From NCBI RefSeq assembly GCF_003584685.1, contig NZ_AP018549.1, positions 372,001 to 436,000 of the forward strand: a DNA stretch of 64,000 bases, read 5' to 3'. The stretch comes from Lactobacillus paragasseri (GTDB lineage Bacteria; Bacillota; Bacilli; Lactobacillales; Lactobacillaceae). Both the position numbers and the translations under genes were made by a program. Positions 44,307-63,303 of this stretch are shown piece by piece; position 1 is the stretch's first letter, and every line of letters starts with the position of its first letter. The notes below the pieces were generated by a model. That model saw only the letters and a list, made by a program, of their open reading frames with translations. It was not told the origin of the DNA and did no database searches.

Positions 44307-44435
44307 ATATGGCGTAAAGATTTTTTTAACATTAGATCTTTATTTCTAGCCTATTCTACTATATTCTAAACTCTACTATTGTTATATAATTAACAAAAAA
44401 ATTAATAAATTATAAAAATACTAGGAGATGAAATT

Positions 44436-45254
44436 ATGGCAATTGGAGAAGCACTGTATGAAGAGCGACAAAAATTAGGATTAACGCAAGAAAATATGGT
44501 GAAGGGAATTATTAACAAAGGGCATTATTCAAAAATTGAACGAGGATTGGAAAATATTTCAATTGATACATTGTTTAGAATTATTTTGAAACACCATATT
44601 GATATTAGTGACTTTTTCAATAAAGTGAAAGATACCTATTATACTTTTGAAGATAAAAAAGCTGAAAAACTAAAGCAAAAGATAATGTATGCTTTTAATA
44701 ATAATCAAAGAGATGAATTAAGAATTTACTTAAATGAAATTTTGGATTTAAAAGAGCATCAGATTTTTAAATATCGAACCGTAATTGCTATTGCATCTTT
44801 AGAAAATAATTTAGCTGACTTAAGTCCATCTTTTAAAAGTAAGATAGTTACTAAATTTTCCGAGCATGAAAATTGGTTTGAAAATATTGGAGCATTACAG
44901 TTATTTTCTGACTGTATGAAAATATTTACTTTGGAACAGCTAGACTATTTTCTTGGTCAACTATTAAAACATTATCAAAAACATACTTATTCTGAAAGTA
45001 TGCAAGAAAGAATAGCAATTATTTGCAATAATTATCTTTGCTATTGTTATAAGCAAAAAATAGTTGGAAGTAATATTCAAAATGCATTGAGCTATTTAAA
45101 AAATTTAGAACCGATTGGTCATTTTTTACTTTATAAAATATGTTATGATCTATATTTTTATTTATTTGAAGGCAATACAGAAAAAGCAGATGAAATAAAG
45201 AAATTACTGATTAATTGTGGATATCAAGACTGTATTGAACGGTGGCAAATTTAG
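44436..45254 (+). CDS. Rgg/MutR-type XRE transcriptional regulator
   Basis: A 272-residue regulator with an N-terminal XRE helix-turn-helix (GEALYEERQKLGLTQENM ... GHYSKIERGLENIS) and a long alpha-helical C-terminal domain like that of peptide-sensing Rgg proteins. AGGAGATG precedes the ATG. Its co-oriented neighbours are two signal-peptide proteins and a membrane-anchored protein, so they are probable targets. Many Rgg proteins sense small peptides, but no SHP-like gene is evident here. Confidence 0.85.
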   Translation: MAIGEALYEERQKLGLTQENMVKGIINKGHYSKIERGLENISIDTLFRIILKHHIDISDFFNKVKDTYYTFEDKKAEKLKQKIMYAFNNNQRDELRIYLNEILDLKEHQIFKYRTVIAIASLENNLADLSPSFKSKIVTKFSEHENWFENIGALQLFSDCMKIFTLEQLDYFLGQLLKHYQKHTYSESMQERIAIICNNYLCYCYKQKIVGSNIQNALSYLKNLEPIGHFLLYKICYDLYFYLFEGNTEKADEIKKLLINCGYQDCIERWQI

Positions 45255-54516: not shown

Positions 54517-57417
54517 ATGAGTAGTAAGATGTTTGGAGATAAACACAACCATTATAGTATTAGAAAACTTTCCGTTGGGGCAGCATCTGTTTTAATTGGT
54601 GCCACAATTTACTTGGGAGGGGTAAACGCCCAAGCTGTACGCGCTGATAGTGTTAATGAGGATGCTACTGAACAAGTAGAGAAGAAGGATGAAGCTAATG
54701 TTAAGGCAGCAGAAGTAAAGACTACTGAACAAAAGCAAGAAAATAATAAGACATCGGTTTCTGCTACTAATGAAAATGCTAAGCAAAATGTTGCTGAAAC
54801 TACATCAGATAGCAAAAAGGTTGCATCAAATGGGGATGTTAATGTTATTAAAAACGATGTAACTACTGATGAAGAAGCAGCTACTAAGTCTAGTGTTCAA
54901 GCAGATAAAGATGTTAATGCAAATAAGTTGGACACTAATACTGTTTCAGTGAATAAGCTTCAGAGAAATTTTAATGTTGCTGGACTTACTGAGAGCAAGG
55001 CTGCTAGTGAGAATGTTGAACAAGAAGCTGAGGAGAGTCCACTTGGTGCACGTTTTATGAACCATGTGAATGAATTTCAATCTCTTAGTGATGTTACAAC
55101 AACGCGTACAGTAACCTTAAATAAACCACAATCTGCTGGTGGTAGGGAAACTATTACGCAAAAGTTAGGTGGATTTGGCTATCCTGAAGTAACAAAAGCA
55201 AGTAATGTATCAACAAACATAACTACGATAAAGTTTGAGTTTACTGTGATGCTAACCCTTAACGGTCAAGGACTGGATACTGGTATTCGTGATTTTTCAA
55301 CAAATTTAGTCCTTTATAATAACAGCTGGACATTTGCATCTGCGGAAGATGAAGAAAATTATAATAAATTCCTGGCTTTTCAACCATCTGATTATAAGGG
55401 AACTTTACCAGCTATTAAGAATAGTGAAATTGCTGTAGATGGATATACTTGGAAGATCACAAGTGCTACTCCAGATGGTGCAGGACTTGGTGCTGAAACA
55501 TTATCACCATATGCTGGTATTTCACAAAATATCGTTATTGATTATACAAAAGAAGAACACACTGTAACTTACAAATTTAAAGATCCATTTGGTAATCAAG
55601 TAGGTAGTTCAGTACCAGTAACCGGTGCAGCTGGTAGCAATCAATCAGTTAGTTTAACTCTTCCAACTGGTTACCAACTTGCGTCAGGAAGCCTTCCAAC
55701 TAGTGTTACTATCCCTGATAAAGATAAAAGTATTTCAATTCCTGTAAAACATCAACTTACAATCACTCTTTTAGGTGAAAGCACATTTAATTATGCGGAT
55801 GATAACTGGAAAAATTTAGTTGAAACTAATGAACTTCCGGCTAGTGGCTATGATATTAGGTTTAATGATGTTAACGCTAGAGTACAACTGTCTAATGGCG
55901 ATGTAACGTATAATGAAAATAGAAATGCTGGAACTTATACAGTTAGTCTAACCGAAAAGGGTCTTAATCACATTAAGGGTCAATTTCATGATAAGTTCAT
56001 TTATCCAGATCTTAAGGATGTCAAAAGTGAGGCCAAGTTTATTATAGATAAAGGAAATAAAACAATTTCTCTTATGGGAGGAGATACAAAGGTATTTGAT
56101 AATACTTCTACTCTTCCAGATCAAGGTACTTTCTATTCGGGACTAGGTCTTGCGGATAATGATCAAGGTAGAATATCAGTTTACAATTCAGATGGCACTC
56201 TTAGAACAATTCAATTAACACCAGCTGATGTAGAATTTTGGTTTAATGGACATAAAATCGATAAAGACCAAGCTAAAAATGTTGGAACGTATAATCTTCG
56301 TTTAACTGATGACTTTATTAATAAAGTTAAAGCTGCTGATGGTAATAATGGAAATAACTATGAGTGGGCTTATGGAACGCACACGCCTACTGGTAGTGAT
56401 ACTTACACTGCTGACTATGTAATTTATCAAGCAACCGGTAAAGCTAACTTAAGCGGTAACAATTCTAAACTTTATGATGGCAATGCTGTAACTACTGCTG
56501 ATGTCAATAAGGATGGGAAGATTACTATTGATTTAACTTTACCAGTCTATAAACAAGCTGATGAACCAGGTGATGTGCCTCAATTATTGAGAACCGTTCC
56601 TTTAGGTAAGTACACACTCCAAGATGGTGACTACACTTGGAACACTACTGATGGTTCTGCACCAACTAAAGGTGGTTCCTACACAATTAGTTTGAATAAG
56701 GATAAGATTTTATCTCATTTGCAAGATCGTTTAAAGACTTTAGCAGGTGTTGGTACTGATCCTGATTCAGAAGATCCAGATAATCCTACTCCTATGGATA
56801 ATGTTACTGTTTCAGCTGAAGATCTTGCTGGTACAGCAAACTATGATATTAATACTAGCGTTTCTTATCAATTCATTGATAATGATAACAATGATAGTAA
56901 AGTTGGTGCTCCTGTAGTTGTAACGGGACTTAATGGTGAATCAAAGGATGTTAGCTTAGTTGTACCAGAAGGTTATGAACTTGTAGATGTATTACCAACT
57001 AAAGCAACTTTTGGTGATATTAATCGAACTATTAGAATTAATTTGAAGCATAAGAAAACATCAGTTGATGGCAGAGATCATAAAGATGATAATGACATTT
57101 ATCGTACAGTAACTCGTACCATTACAGTTAATATTGAAGGACAACCTACACAAGTTATATCTCAAAAAGTTTCACTATATAGAATCAAGACAGTTGATGA
57201 AGCTTTAAAGGCAGCAGGTAAGCCAGAATCTGAGTACACAACTTACAGTGCTTGGACTTCAAATATGTCTGATGGATCAACTTCATTTGCAACAGTATCA
57301 GTACCAGCAGATGGAAACGGTTATGTTCGTTCAATTACTGGTGGCACAATTGAAAAGGATAAAGTTACAGAACAATCAGCTTTAAACAACGGTGAACCAG
57401 CCAAGGATAACTGTTAA
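54517..57417 (+). CDS. Mucus-binding-type adhesin, N-terminal part (frameshifted)
   Basis: The 966-residue first part of a large cell-wall adhesin. A YSIRK signal (HNHYSIRKLSVGAASVLIG) directs it to the cross-wall, followed by a Ser/Thr/Lys-rich region, then domains resembling MucBP or Mub B2 units (HTVTYKFKDPFGNQVGSSVP, VSYQFIDNDN). The ATG at 54517 has GGAGG upstream. The frame ends at a TAA after EPAKDNC; one extra base in GCCAAGGATA (near 57405) moves it out of frame. Removing it gives EPAKITVNYAKAEQ, continuous with the next ORF. As written, this part has no wall anchor and would be secreted. Confidence 0.88.
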   Translation: MSSKMFGDKHNHYSIRKLSVGAASVLIGATIYLGGVNAQAVRADSVNEDATEQVEKKDEANVKAAEVKTTEQKQENNKTSVSATNENAKQNVAETTSDSKKVASNGDVNVIKNDVTTDEEAATKSSVQADKDVNANKLDTNTVSVNKLQRNFNVAGLTESKAASENVEQEAEESPLGARFMNHVNEFQSLSDVTTTRTVTLNKPQSAGGRETITQKLGGFGYPEVTKASNVSTNITTIKFEFTVMLTLNGQGLDTGIRDFSTNLVLYNNSWTFASAEDEENYNKFLAFQPSDYKGTLPAIKNSEIAVDGYTWKITSATPDGAGLGAETLSPYAGISQNIVIDYTKEEHTVTYKFKDPFGNQVGSSVPVTGAAGSNQSVSLTLPTGYQLASGSLPTSVTIPDKDKSISIPVKHQLTITLLGESTFNYADDNWKNLVETNELPASGYDIRFNDVNARVQLSNGDVTYNENRNAGTYTVSLTEKGLNHIKGQFHDKFIYPDLKDVKSEAKFIIDKGNKTISLMGGDTKVFDNTSTLPDQGTFYSGLGLADNDQGRISVYNSDGTLRTIQLTPADVEFWFNGHKIDKDQAKNVGTYNLRLTDDFINKVKAADGNNGNNYEWAYGTHTPTGSDTYTADYVIYQATGKANLSGNNSKLYDGNAVTTADVNKDGKITIDLTLPVYKQADEPGDVPQLLRTVPLGKYTLQDGDYTWNTTDGSAPTKGGSYTISLNKDKILSHLQDRLKTLAGVGTDPDSEDPDNPTPMDNVTVSAEDLAGTANYDINTSVSYQFIDNDNNDSKVGAPVVVTGLNGESKDVSLVVPEGYELVDVLPTKATFGDINRTIRINLKHKKTSVDGRDHKDDNDIYRTVTRTITVNIEGQPTQVISQKVSLYRIKTVDEALKAAGKPESEYTTYSAWTSNMSDGSTSFATVSVPADGNGYVRSITGGTIEKDKVTEQSALNNGEPAKDNC

Positions 57418-58060
57418 CTATGCAAAGGCTGAGCAATCTACAACTGTAACTTACGTTGATAAAGATGGTAATGAAATTAAGATGCCAGATGGTCAGCCAG
57501 TAGCAGGGAGTCACTATGAAATTTCAGGTAAGACTGGAGACACAGTTAATACTGATGTAAAAGACAAAGTACCAGCAGGCTGGGAGATTATTCCAGGAAC
57601 TAAGTATCCAACTACAGTAACGTTTGGCTCAACTCCAACTAGTCCAATTAAAGTTAAAGTAGAGCACAAGATTACTAAAACTGATGGCAGAAATCACAAA
57701 GATAAGCAAGATTTGTACCGTGAAGTCACTAGAACAATTTTAATGAATGTTCCAAATGCAACGAGTCAAGGTAAAGAAACTGAAACTTTGAGTTTCTACA
57801 GAATTATGACCCATGATGAAGTAACTGGTGATAATACTTACAGTGAATGGAAATCAGATGTAGCAGGTGATAAGACTGCCTTTGATGAATTTGATGTTTC
57901 AAAGACTAATGATGGTAAAGAAATCGCTGCTGGTTATACTCCAACTTCAAGAGATGTAACGTTAGAAGCTAAGAACGGCGACAAATTTGTACCAAGTCAA
58001 TCAGCCTTGAAGAATGGGGTTCCAGCAGATAGTTTCATTGTTGAAGTTGCTTACACACCA

Positions 58061-59725
58061 AATGCACAAAAGACAACAGTAACTTATGTTGATGAAAGTG
58101 GTAATGAAATTACCAATCCAGATGGTAGCGTAATTCCTGGTAGTCACTATGATTTAACTGGTGTAACAAATAAGAAAGTTGATACTAATATTCAGAAGAA
58201 TGTACCAACTAATTGGCATATTACTGATCCAGAAGTTCCAGCAACTATTACCTTTGGCGCAGATGGTCATACTCCAATCACAGTTCACGTAGCTCACAAC
58301 ACTAAGCCTGTGGATAAGAATGATGTTCCAGATGGTTACACTAAAGATAATTTTGTTAAAGAGATTAAACGCTCAATTACTGCTAAGGAGCCAACTGGTG
58401 ATGTTGATCTAAGTCAAACAACTGAATTGACGAGAACTGGAACTTATGACGAAGTAACTAAGAAGGTTATTTCTTATGGCAACTGGACAACTGGTAGCTT
58501 TGATGAAGTTACAGCTCCAGAAGTTGCAGGTTACACACCAAGTCAAGCTAAAGTTGATAGAGCTGATGTAACAGTAGATAGTAAGTTTGATCCAACTGTT
58601 ATTACATATGCACCAAATGCACAGAAGACAACAGTAACTTACGTCGATAAAAATGGTAAGGAAATTACCAACCCAGATGGCAGTGTAATTCCTGGCAGTC
58701 ACTATGATGTAACTGGTGTAACAAATAAGAAAGTTGATACTAATATTCAGAAGAATGTACCAACTAATTGGCATATTACTGATCCAGAAGTTCCAGCAAC
58801 TATTACTTTCGGTTCAGATGGATATCCTGCAATTACAGTTCATGTAGCTCACAACATTAAGACTGTGGATAAGAATGATGTTCCAGATAACTACAAGGAA
58901 AGTGACTTTAGTAAGACCATTAATCGTACAATTACTGCTAAGGAGCCAACTGGTGATGTTGATCTAAGTCAAACAACTGAATTGACGAGAACTGGAACTT
59001 ATGACGAAGTAACTAAGAAGGTTATTTCTTATGGCAACTGGACAACTGGTAGCTTTGATGAAGTTACAGCTCCAGAAGTTGCAGGTTACACACCAAGTCA
59101 AGCTAAAGTTGATGGAGCTGATGTAACAGTAGATAGTAAGTTTGATCCAACTGTTATTACATATGCACCAAATGCACAGAAGACAACAGTAACTTACGTC
59201 GATAAAAACGGTAAGGAAATTACCAACCCAGATGGTGGTGCAATCACTGGCAGCCATTACGATGTAGATGGTGTAACTGGTCAAAAAGATATTCCAACTA
59301 ACATCGAAAAGAATGTTCCAACAAATTGGCACATTACTGATAAGACTATTCCAGGAACTATTAGCTTTGGTCCAAATGGACATGATCCAATTAAAGTTCA
59401 TGTAGCTCACAACACTAAGCCAGCTGATAAAGATAATGTACCAGATGGCTACAAGAGGGAAGACTTTGATAAGACTGTAACTCGTACAATTACTGCCAAA
59501 GAACCAAGTGGCGATGTTGATCTAAGTCAACATGTTGAATTAACAAGAACTGGTACTTACGATGAAGTAACTAAAGAAGTTACATACAACCCTTGGACTA
59601 CTAGCAGCTTTGTTGAAGTAACTGCTCCAGAAGTAGCTGGTTATACTCCAAGTCAAGCTAAGGTTGATGGTGTTAAAGTAACTGCAGATAGTAACTTTGA
59701 TCCAGTTGTGATTACTTATGTTGAA
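58061..59725 (+). repeat. Mub-type repeats, about 555-base period
   Basis: The segment beginning AATGCACA(A/G)AAGACAAC recurs at 58061, 58616 and 59171, 555 bases (185 residues) apart. Units one and two are almost identical; the third diverges after its first third. These are mucus-binding domains. Confidence 0.9.
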
Positions 59726-61017
59726 GATCCAATTGGTCAAGACATCACAGTAAAGAAGGGTGACACCCCATCACCAGAAGATGGCGTTAAGAATCATGGT
59801 GACTTAGACAAGGTCACTGATCCAAAGCATCCAGATGCTAAGACAACCTACACTTGGAAGAAGACGCCAGACACAAGCGTTCCAGGTAATGTCCCAGCAA
59901 CAGTGATTGTTCATTACCCAGATGGTTCTAATAAGCCAGTTGATATTACAGTTCATGTTATAGATGAAACTCCAATACCAACCAAGGACCCAGATCCAAT
60001 TGGCCAAGACATCACAGTAAAGAAGGGCGACACCCCATCACCAGAAGATGGCGTTAAGAATCATGGTGACTTAGACAAGGTCGCTGATCCAAAGCATCCA
60101 GATGCTAAGACAACCTACACTTGGAAGAAGACGCCAGACACAAGCGTCGCAGGAGATGTCCCAGCAACAGTGATCGTTCACTACCCAGATGGTTCTAATA
60201 AGCCAGTTGATATCACTATTCACGTTGTAGATGACACTCCAGTAGTACCAACTAAGAATCCAGATCCAATTGGTCAAGATATCACAGTGAAGAAGGGCGA
60301 CACTCCAGATCCAGAAGATGGGGTTAAGAACCACGGTGATTTAGATAAGATCACAGATCCAAAGCACCCAGGCACTAAGACAACCTACACTTGGAAGAAG
60401 ACGCCAGACACAAGCGTCGCAGGAGATGTCCCAGCAACAGTGATCGTTCACTACCCAGACGGTTCTAATAAGCCAGTTGATATTACTGTCCATGTTGTAG
60501 ATGACACTCCAGTAGTACCAACCAAGAATCCAGATCCAATTGGTCAAGATATCACAGTAAAGAAGGGTGACACCCCATCACCAGAAGATGGGGTTAAGAA
60601 CCACGGTGATTTAGATAAGATCACAGATCCAAAGCACCCAGGCACTAAGACAACCTACACCTGGAAGAAGACTCCAGATACAAGCGTCGCAGGCGATGTC
60701 CCAGCAACAGTAGTTGTTCACTACCCAGATGGTTCTGAAAAGACAGTTGATATCACAGTTCATGTTGTTGACGATACTACAGTAGTACCAACAAAGAACC
60801 CAGATCCAACTGGTCAAGATATTCATACTCCACAAGGTAAGGTTCCAACTCCTGAATCAGCTATTACTAACAAGGACAAGATGCCAGATGGAACTAAGTA
60901 CACTTGGAAGGAAATCCCAGATGTTAATACTTTAGGTAAGCATCCTAGTGTAGTTGTTGTAACTTACCCAGATGGAACTGCTGTTGAAGTGAAAGTTAAT
61001 GTCTTTGTCGACGGCAC
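59726..61017 (+). repeat. Rib/alpha-like repeats, 267-270-base period
   Basis: GATCCAATTGGTCAAGA-type starts occur at 59726, 59993, 60263, 60533 and 60803 (89-90 residues). Four units are near-identical; the last at 60803 is shortened and divergent. Each carries DPIGQDITVKKGDTP and a PATVIVHYPDG segment. Such DNA can change copy number by recombination. Confidence 0.9.
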
Positions 61018-61303
61018 TCCAGAAGCAAAGAAAGAAACTAAAGCTCCAGTAGTTAAGAAACATGTTGTTGAACCAACAAAAGTTGAAACAAGACAAAAGT
61101 TGGTTAATAATTACGTGGCTCCTCGTGCAGTAGAAGTTCAAAGAGCTCAAGCTAAAGGTAAGCGTCAATTACCACAAACTGGTGCTAAAGAAAATATTGC
61201 AAGTGAAGTACTAGGCATGCTTTCAGTAGGCTTAGGTGCATTGACTGCAGGATTTGCTTCAAAGCGTCGTAAGAAGAATAGATAGTTTTTAGGATAACTA
61301 ATT

Positions 61304-61345
61304 AAAAACACTCCATGATTTTTCAGAAATCACGGGGTGTTTTTG
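61304..61345 (+). terminator. Terminator after the adhesin
   Basis: AAAAACACTCC...TGATTT (from 61304) pairs with AAATCA...TGTTTTT (to 61344), with two mismatches. Confidence 0.75.
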
Positions 61346-61387: not shown

Positions 61388-61396
61388 TGATATAAT
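61388..61396 (+). promoter_or_regulatory. Extended -10 promoter of the leader/ABC exporter unit
   Basis: TGA-TATAAT at 61388-61396 is a TG-extended -10 box, 33 bases upstream of the leader ORF. Confidence 0.65.
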
Positions 61397-61429
61397 TTAA
61401 TAAAAATATTATCTTAGGAGGATGAAAAA

Positions 61430-61480
61430 ATGATCATGGTAGTAACAAACGCTCATCAAAATGTACAAATCACTAGATAA
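61430..61480 (+). CDS. Candidate leader peptide, 16 codons
   Basis: ATG at 61430 with TAGGAGG (61415-61421) 8 bases upstream encodes MIMVVTNAHQNVQITR then TAA. It is far below normal ORF cutoffs. Codons 7-10 contain the first arm of a hairpin with 61483-61490. It precedes an ABC exporter, so translation of this ORF could control the downstream gene. No known leader family is recognised. Confidence 0.5.
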   Translation: MIMVVTNAHQNVQITR

Positions 61481-61535
61481 TAGATGAGCGGAACTTAATT
61501 AAATTTCATTTTGTTAAATCCGTTCATCGAGGAGG
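61450..61535 (+). promoter_or_regulatory. Two mutually exclusive hairpins before the ABC exporter
   Basis: CGCTCATC (61450-61457) pairs with GATGAGCG (61483-61490). The same segment, extended to GATGAGCGGA (61483-61492), can instead pair with TCCGTTCATC (61519-61528), directly adjacent to the ribosome site GAGGAGG (61529-61535). This is the layout of a translational attenuator. Confidence 0.55.
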
Positions 61536-61539
61536 CAAA

Positions 61540-63303
61540 ATGAAACATTTACATAAATTAAACCAATACTTCAAAGAATTAACTCGAACTTATCACCTGT
61601 TCTTTAAATCAGCTCCTTTAGTTGCCGCTTGTGTCTTATTACTTGCACCACTTCAAGCAGTAATTCCTTTACTTGCTGTGGCAGCAGGACAAAAGGTAAT
61701 TGATCAAGTTACTAATCATTCACCTTTTATGGAAATGATCATTGTTTGGATTGTGGCAACGGCATTTCAACAATTTTTACCATCGCTTTCGACAATGGTT
61801 CAAGGAGTTCTAACTGATAAATTAACAGGCTTTATCAATATTAGCTTGATGAAAAAGTCGGCGGACTTACAATCGATCAGTATTTTTGATGACAGTAAGT
61901 ATTTTGACGATTTACAAATGCTCAGAGATGATGCAAGCTGGCGTCCAGTTAATTTAATTGTTTTTGGTGTATCGGTTTTGCAATCATTTCTAACGCTAGC
62001 TTTCATGCTAATATATCTGGCGCGATACAATTGGTGGTTAGCCTTGCTTTTATTAGTAGTGATGGTGCCGCAGAGTATTTCTTACTATCGTATTCAGCAG
62101 CAGTCATTTGAGACAATGGTTGAAAGAAGCAAGAACGCAAGATACTTGCACTACTATAGTGGATTGTTGCTTGACCGCAGGGATGCTAAAGAAGTTAGAC
62201 TTTTCAACATGTTTCCAAAGATCATTGAAAAGTACATAAACTTGTTTGAGCAAACGAAAAAAGATGTTAATCAAATTCGTAAAAGGCAACTTGCGACTAG
62301 TTCGCTATTTGTTGTATTGACTGTTGGAGTGTTTGGCTATGGCTTTTATTGGTTTACTAATTCAGTAAGAACAGGTGCATTAGAAGTTGGTGTCTTATTG
62401 ATGTTTGTTTCAGTAATTGGCTATATTTCTACCAGTATGGCGCGAGTAGTAGAAGACAGCAGCTTGTTATACGATTCATTATTATGGATTGAAAAATACT
62501 TTAAGTTTCTTGAGTATCAAGATAATTTTGAAAACGGCAGCCAGAACTTTCCGGATGATTTTGATGATATTAATGTTAAGAATCTGTCTTTTACATATCC
62601 GTTTTCTGATACTGAAATTTTACACAATGTTAGTTTCTCAGTTAAAAGTGGAGAAAAAATTGCAGTTGTTGGAGAAAATGGGTCGGGAAAGTCTACTTTG
62701 GTAAAATTATTAATGCGTTTTTATGACCCGACTAATGGAAAAATTTCTGTTGATAATTATGATTTAAAAGACTTTAATATTTTTGACTTACATAAAAATT
62801 TATCAGCTACTTTTCAGGATTTTTCTCGCTTTAAATTAACGCTTCAAGAAAACGTGATTACTGGATATTCATTCAATAAAGATAGGGTAAATAATGTTCT
62901 TAAAGCATCTGGATTGGGTGATTTGTTAGCTAATGACCATCTTAATCTGAATACGATGCTGGCTAAAGATTTCAAAAATGGAACTGATTTGTCAGGTGGT
63001 CAATGGCAAAAAGTAGCTTTGGCACGAGACTTATATGCTGATGGTAAGATTGAATTTTTAGATGAACCAACGGCAGCTTTAGACGCTAAGAGCGAAGCAG
63101 AAATTTATCAACGTTTCTTGAAGGAAAATGATAAGAAGACAATTTTCTTTGTTACTCACCGCTTGTCAGCAGTTAGATTTGCTGATAAAGTGCTATTTTT
63201 AGATGGTGGAAAAATTAGCGGGTTTGACACGCATACTAATTTGTTGCAAACTAATCCAAAATATAAAGAAATGTATGACTTACAGAAAGATGCATATCTG
63301 TAA
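61540..63303 (+). CDS. ABC exporter, fused permease and ATPase
   Basis: A 587-residue half transporter. The N-terminal part has about six membrane helices (SAPLVAACVLLLAPLQAVIP, FLTLAFMLIYLARYN and others); the C-terminal ATPase carries Walker A GENGSGKST, signature LSGGQWQKVALAR and Walker B IEFLDEPTAALD. It probably dimerises and exports a peptide, lipid or drug. GAGGAGG is 4 bases before the ATG. A leader ORF and hairpins precede it. Confidence 0.9.
   Translation: MKHLHKLNQYFKELTRTYHLFFKSAPLVAACVLLLAPLQAVIPLLAVAAGQKVIDQVTNHSPFMEMIIVWIVATAFQQFLPSLSTMVQGVLTDKLTGFINISLMKKSADLQSISIFDDSKYFDDLQMLRDDASWRPVNLIVFGVSVLQSFLTLAFMLIYLARYNWWLALLLLVVMVPQSISYYRIQQQSFETMVERSKNARYLHYYSGLLLDRRDAKEVRLFNMFPKIIEKYINLFEQTKKDVNQIRKRQLATSSLFVVLTVGVFGYGFYWFTNSVRTGALEVGVLLMFVSVIGYISTSMARVVEDSSLLYDSLLWIEKYFKFLEYQDNFENGSQNFPDDFDDINVKNLSFTYPFSDTEILHNVSFSVKSGEKIAVVGENGSGKSTLVKLLMRFYDPTNGKISVDNYDLKDFNIFDLHKNLSATFQDFSRFKLTLQENVITGYSFNKDRVNNVLKASGLGDLLANDHLNLNTMLAKDFKNGTDLSGGQWQKVALARDLYADGKIEFLDEPTAALDAKSEAEIYQRFLKENDKKTIFFVTHRLSAVRFADKVLFLDGGKISGFDTHTNLLQTNPKYKEMYDLQKDAYL

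Follow-up and report, generated by a model that had tools for sequence, protein, structure and literature searches.

Upstream of an ABC exporter gene of Lactobacillus paragasseri lies a short open reading frame followed by segments that can pair in mutually exclusive ways. Does this region control the exporter, and what would it sense? The window considered here is the whole stretch of 64,000 nucleotides that was analysed (contig NZ_AP018549.1, positions 372,001 to 436,000), and all coordinates are those of the window. We consider it likely that translation of an intrinsic ABC exporter is controlled here by a chromosomal attenuator of the erm/cat/cmlA type that responds to ribosome stalling. 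A leader-peptide attenuator acting through ribosome stalling had been proposed in the initial annotation, and it is still the reading that best accounts for the sequence, for its conservation and for the outcome of the folding tests. The candidate elements are as follows.

61388..61396, + strand, extended -10 promoter element TGATATAAT (from the sequence)
61416..61421, + strand, Shine-Dalgarno box AGGAGG of the leader ORF (from the sequence)
61430..61480, + strand, leader ORF of 16 codons, MIMVVTNAHQNVQITR-stop (from the sequence and the alignment)
61450..61457, + strand, arm 1, CGCTCATC, within leader codons 7-10; pairs with arm 2
61483..61492, + strand, arm 2, GATGAGCGGA (also written GATGAGCG(GA)), common to helices 1:2 (OFF) and 2:4 (ON)
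61504..61515, + strand, arm 3, TTTCATTTTGTT; partner of arm 5 in the helix across the exporter start
61519..61528, + strand, arm 4, TCCGTTCATC; in the ON state pairs with arm 2 (10 bp, one G-U)
61530..61535, + strand, exporter Shine-Dalgarno box AGGAGG; in the OFF state its two final G residues are paired with arm 3
61534..61545, + strand, arm 5, GGCAAAATGAAA, including the exporter ATG; pairs with arm 3
61540..63303, + strand, type IV (B-family) ABC exporter, 587 aa (ABC_tran 2.5e-29)

The extended -10 element, the ribosome site and the 16-codon ORF described in the initial annotation are all present in the sequence. TATAAT is kept in all ten aligned relatives and the TG extension in some of them only. 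No -35 hexamer passes the promoter scan, and the promoter is thus absent from the scan output. The ORF lies upstream of the exporter, is co-directional with it and has its own ribosome site, which is conserved among the aligned relatives except for a single substitution in L036. All 11 genomes that carry the leader keep its length of 16 codons; the sole indel, of 3 nt at the end of the ORF (L028 and L029), leaves the frame and the stop intact. The peptide variants are MIMVVTNAHQNVQITR (two genomes), MITVVSDAHQNIQITR, MPTVVLNAHQDEQITR, MPTVVLNAHQNVQDNK, MPTVVLNAHQNLQNNK, and MPTVVLNAHQNLQDNK (five genomes). Residues V4, V5, A8, H9, Q10 and Q13 are invariant in these 11 genomes, and the neighbouring residues differ; in the alignment this suggests that one particular site matters. 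Identity at codon positions 1, 2 and 3 is 84, 79 and 80%, and with this lack of a third-position excess the alignment does not show selection on the leader peptide as a whole.

The minimum-energy fold of 61404-61580 consists of helices 1:2 and 3:5 (-31.0 kcal/mol, z -2.74), and 1 of 200 shuffles folded equally well. The 3:5 start-codon hairpin has 12 bp, ten Watson-Crick and two G-U, and buries the exporter ATG together with the tail of its Shine-Dalgarno box. Since the arms follow in the order 2, 3, 4, 5 and arm 4 sits in the 3:5 loop, helices 2:4 and 3:5 are mutually exclusive unless a pseudoknot is formed. Helix 2:4 excludes 3:5 and is therefore the state that would free the ATG. The exclusive pairings 1:2 and 2:4, the latter over ten bases, had been seen earlier and are confirmed here. 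The position of arm 4 beside the exporter ribosome site was also described correctly, helix 2:4 ending one base ahead of the Shine-Dalgarno box. However, 2:4 is the predicted ON state, and silencing would be due to the separate 3:5 hairpin, which had been overlooked. Helix 2:4, being so near the Shine-Dalgarno box, could hinder 30S binding. The scan found no + strand terminator between the leader and the exporter, and therefore control would act at translation. The Rfam search yielded only weak matches, none above the gathering score.

These elements suggest the following sequence of events. In the resting state arm 1 would pair with arm 2 and arm 3 with arm 5, so that the exporter ATG and the end of the Shine-Dalgarno box would be buried. 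A ribosome that completes the leader would cover arm 2 when at the stop codon and leave 3:5 in place, the exporter still being OFF. If a ribosome is instead held anywhere from leader codon 4 to codon 14, arm 1 would be covered and arm 2 left free to pair with arm 4. As the resulting 2:4 helix is topologically incompatible with 3:5, the ATG would be released. We thus infer that the leader is translated, that ribosomes stall on it and that exporter synthesis then rises.

To mimic a stalled ribosome, all RNA as far as 15 nt beyond the first nucleotide of the P-site codon was deleted before folding; the size of this footprint is assumed, and the folds are those at equilibrium. The exporter ATG is predicted to be unpaired with a probability of 0.00 when the whole leader is folded; this rises to 0.44-0.60 for a P site at codons 4-14 and is again 0.00 for codons 2-3 and 15-16. 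With the ribosome at the leader stop, where it covers arm 2 and 3:5 persists, the predicted exposure is likewise 0.00. Even the ON state reaches a predicted ATG exposure of only about 0.6. A null sample was taken from stretches of the same genome totalling 864 kb, in which a simple caller found 485 genes, giving 29 leader-gene pairs. The OFF-ON-OFF pattern, defined as exposure below 0.05 for the full leader, above 0.5 with a stalled ribosome and below 0.05 at the stop, was shown by one pair of the 29, namely this leader and exporter.

The exporter was found at E <= 1e-120 in 18 of the 75 genomes searched in the genus, and in 11 of these 18 it is preceded by the leader. The leader-bearing genomes, all at species level, belong to a single Lactobacillus clade that includes L. 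taiwanensis, L. hominis and Candidatus L. pullistercoris. Of 150 relatives searched with a covariance model, 11 gave a single copy each, every one at the exporter and none at other genes, and no copy was found in the plasmid collection. The leader is missing in L. johnsonii ATCC 33200 and L. psittaci, and also from the exporters that are about 60% identical. Weak DNA matches (L049-L051) were considered as further leaders and rejected, as they fall in start regions of unrelated genes. Similarly, a search for a wider VVx[ND]AHQ[ND] family in 397 Lactobacillaceae genomes gave three matches outside the clade, one within a long protein and two in frames with no matching short leader ORF, and these were taken as chance.

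The leader and the arms are thus conserved in relatives, as anticipated by the initial annotation. In ten sequences 97.5% of the cells are paired in helix 1:2, 100% in 2:4 and 98.2% in 3:5, as opposed to 25-56% in slid controls. Mean pairwise identity is 91% in arm 1, 94% in arm 2 and 96% in arms 3 and 4; elsewhere it is 81% and 76% in the linkers and 65% at four-fold sites of the exporter. Covariation of the arms, also anticipated, is weakly present. Variation in 1:2 and 2:4 is one-sided (G-U with A-U or G-C), with no two-sided change, and 3:5 has one compensatory pair, T-A in three sequences, A-T in five and an unpaired A.A in two. In shuffle control (a) there was no signal for 1:2 and 2:4 and a weak signal for 3:5 (38/500). 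With few independent sequences, the covariation support for the helices appears thin.

Ribosome-dependent opening of the ATG is predicted in 10 of the 11 genomes. Seven genomes other than L. paragasseri are predicted to switch as the window does, and two are partly open at the start, with predicted default openness 0.30 in G014 (L021) and 0.53 in G021 (L023); both are predicted to be shut with the ribosome at the stop. G021 is half open by default because its helix 1:2 is broken by two mismatches. The exception is L. hominis (L025/L053), predicted to be OFF throughout even with a stalled ribosome (0.02-0.09).

The exporter has its membrane and ATPase parts in a single chain, and its best solved relatives are ABCB-type exporters; among the best 25 NCBIfam matches none reaches the cut-off. 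It is located between groEL and a mutS-like gene, both names being assigned from the translated sequences. In the window a large LPXTG surface protein with Rib/Muc_B2 repeats (57392-61285) lies between groEL and the leader, and a terminator-like hairpin follows its stop codon at about 61313-61335. In L. taiwanensis, G024, G059 and G069 an Rgg-like regulator is encoded directly upstream of the leader; in the window, L053 and L054 the leader has no adjoining Rgg. In L. johnsonii ATCC 33200 (L056) the leader is missing, and the exporter is preceded by two genes (794-1642 and 1779-2468), the first for an Rgg-like regulator and the second for an orphan protein of 229 aa. These genes and the exporter are possibly an older regulated operon. 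The orphan protein has no Pfam or NCBIfam match; a 43% identical relative occurs in L033. The window encodes another Rgg-like protein (44433-45215), 28% identical to that of L. johnsonii.

The exporter frame of L. taiwanensis L024 contains one in-frame TAG, and that of the Candidatus L. pullistercoris metagenome-assembled genome (L036) is broken. These interruptions could be assembly errors or decay. L024 and L052 are mosaic, the leader region resembling that of L026 and the exporter that of the window: identity at four-fold sites of the exporter is 0.78-0.82 between L024/L052 and the window, versus 0.55 between L024 and L026. In these alignments the pattern suggests recombination near the exporter start.

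One alternative is that the inverted repeats arose by chance in an A+T-rich leader. Two of 1000 dinucleotide shuffles of the leader region satisfy the strict OFF-ON-OFF definition, and the genome holds many genes. On the other hand, the pairing and its position are conserved in 11 species-level genomes and the behaviour is unique in the genome sample, and chance is strongly disfavoured. The 16-aa peptide could itself be the functional product, acting as a pheromone or being exported by the pump, perhaps in connection with the upstream Rgg, given the Rgg-like regulators upstream of the leader in four genomes and of the exporter in L. johnsonii. We regard this as very unlikely. The peptide is short and polar at its end, with no signal or double-glycine leader, the non-coding arms are better conserved than the peptide, and the leader is kept where no Rgg adjoins it and absent in the Rgg-bearing L. 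johnsonii. Assignment as an Rgg/SHP pheromone gene was rejected given the polar peptide and this same distribution.

Other alternatives retain the RNA switch and change its cue. The initial annotation named a stalling drug or a starvation state; ribosome stalling holds up as the cue, and starvation fares poorly. Sensing of histidine, glutamine or valine starvation, as in classical amino acid attenuators, would fit the invariance of the His9, Gln10, Val4 and Val5 codons; stalls at these codons lie within the ON window or at its border. However, there is no run of a single codon beyond Val-Val, and the target is an exporter, neither a biosynthetic gene nor an importer. For want of such a run and such a target, biosynthetic or uptake, the trp/his type of attenuator was rejected, and starvation sensing is improbable in our judgement. 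The rate of ordinary leader translation might instead tune the exporter and so report growth rate or ribosome availability; in that case no specific arrest would be involved, and the exporter would open whenever a ribosome moved slowly through codons 4-14. The breadth of the ON window agrees with this, as does the lack of a synonymous over non-synonymous excess in the peptide as a whole; the invariant residues among variable neighbours point rather to a particular site. We therefore give this possibility small weight.

If stalling on the leader opens the exporter, as we consider likely, a drug acting at the peptidyl transferase centre, of the phenicol or oxazolidinone type, is a possible inducer, suggested tentatively. 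This type is preferred because, with His9 in the P site, the invariant Ala8 occupies the penultimate position and the ribosome stands midway along the ON window, leaving RNA free from 61469. Chloramphenicol and linezolid arrest ribosomes best with alanine at the penultimate (-1) position, chloramphenicol also in Lactobacillus plantarum (PMC8987054). Other 50S drugs are perhaps inducers as well. A rather doubtful variant, though not a negligible one, is that the leader acts as a nascent-peptide sensor of a new kind (VVx[ND]AHQ[ND]) for a natural compound of the gut or of competitors that the pump exports, and not for a clinical antibiotic. It would have taken over a pump that in L. johnsonii follows the Rgg and orphan 229-aa genes.

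The best-known translational attenuators belong to acquired resistance genes. If the stalling-dependent attenuator is real, it would be an intrinsic one, conserved among the human and animal commensals of one clade, and would couple pump expression in probiotic species to drug exposure. The identity of the inducer would be a quick route to the substrate of the pump, and the leader would be an additional peptide for studies of context-specific ribosome arrest. The pumps encoded by cmlA and fexA are MFS proteins, whereas the target here is an ABC exporter; the peptide also differs, with 16 codons here and nine amino acids in cmlA. These are acquired resistance genes, whereas here the leader was found on Lactobacillus chromosomes only, with none in the plasmid collection.

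With cmlA and fexA the locus shares a short leader ORF bearing its own Shine-Dalgarno box, alternate stem-loops, a sequestered Shine-Dalgarno box or ATG and an exporter as target (PMC8876359, PMC5418344); cmlA is induced through chloramphenicol stalling in its 9-aa leader peptide (PMC8876359). In ermC, as proposed here, stalling of a ribosome over arm 1 lets arm 2 pair with a later arm, and the resistance gene start becomes accessible (PMC5418344). However, the ermC target is an rRNA methylase and not an exporter, and ermC is a plain four-arm relay, whereas here 3:5 holds arm 4 in its loop and the ON and OFF states clash in the manner of a pseudoknot. The bmrB leader of bmrCD in Bacillus subtilis also governs an ABC exporter through leader translation upon exposure to 50S drugs (PMC4191407). 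It encodes 53 amino acids and acts via transcription termination; a transcriptional attenuator of this type was rejected here, as no + strand intrinsic terminator precedes the exporter as far as the scan shows. No description of the leader-exporter switch was found among open-licence papers. The locus combines a leader ORF, a predicted start-sequestering hairpin, a predicted start-freeing alternative pairing (not in L. hominis) and the lack of an intrinsic terminator, and the candidate switch is a further case of a known attenuator type, following the erm/cat/cmlA logic.
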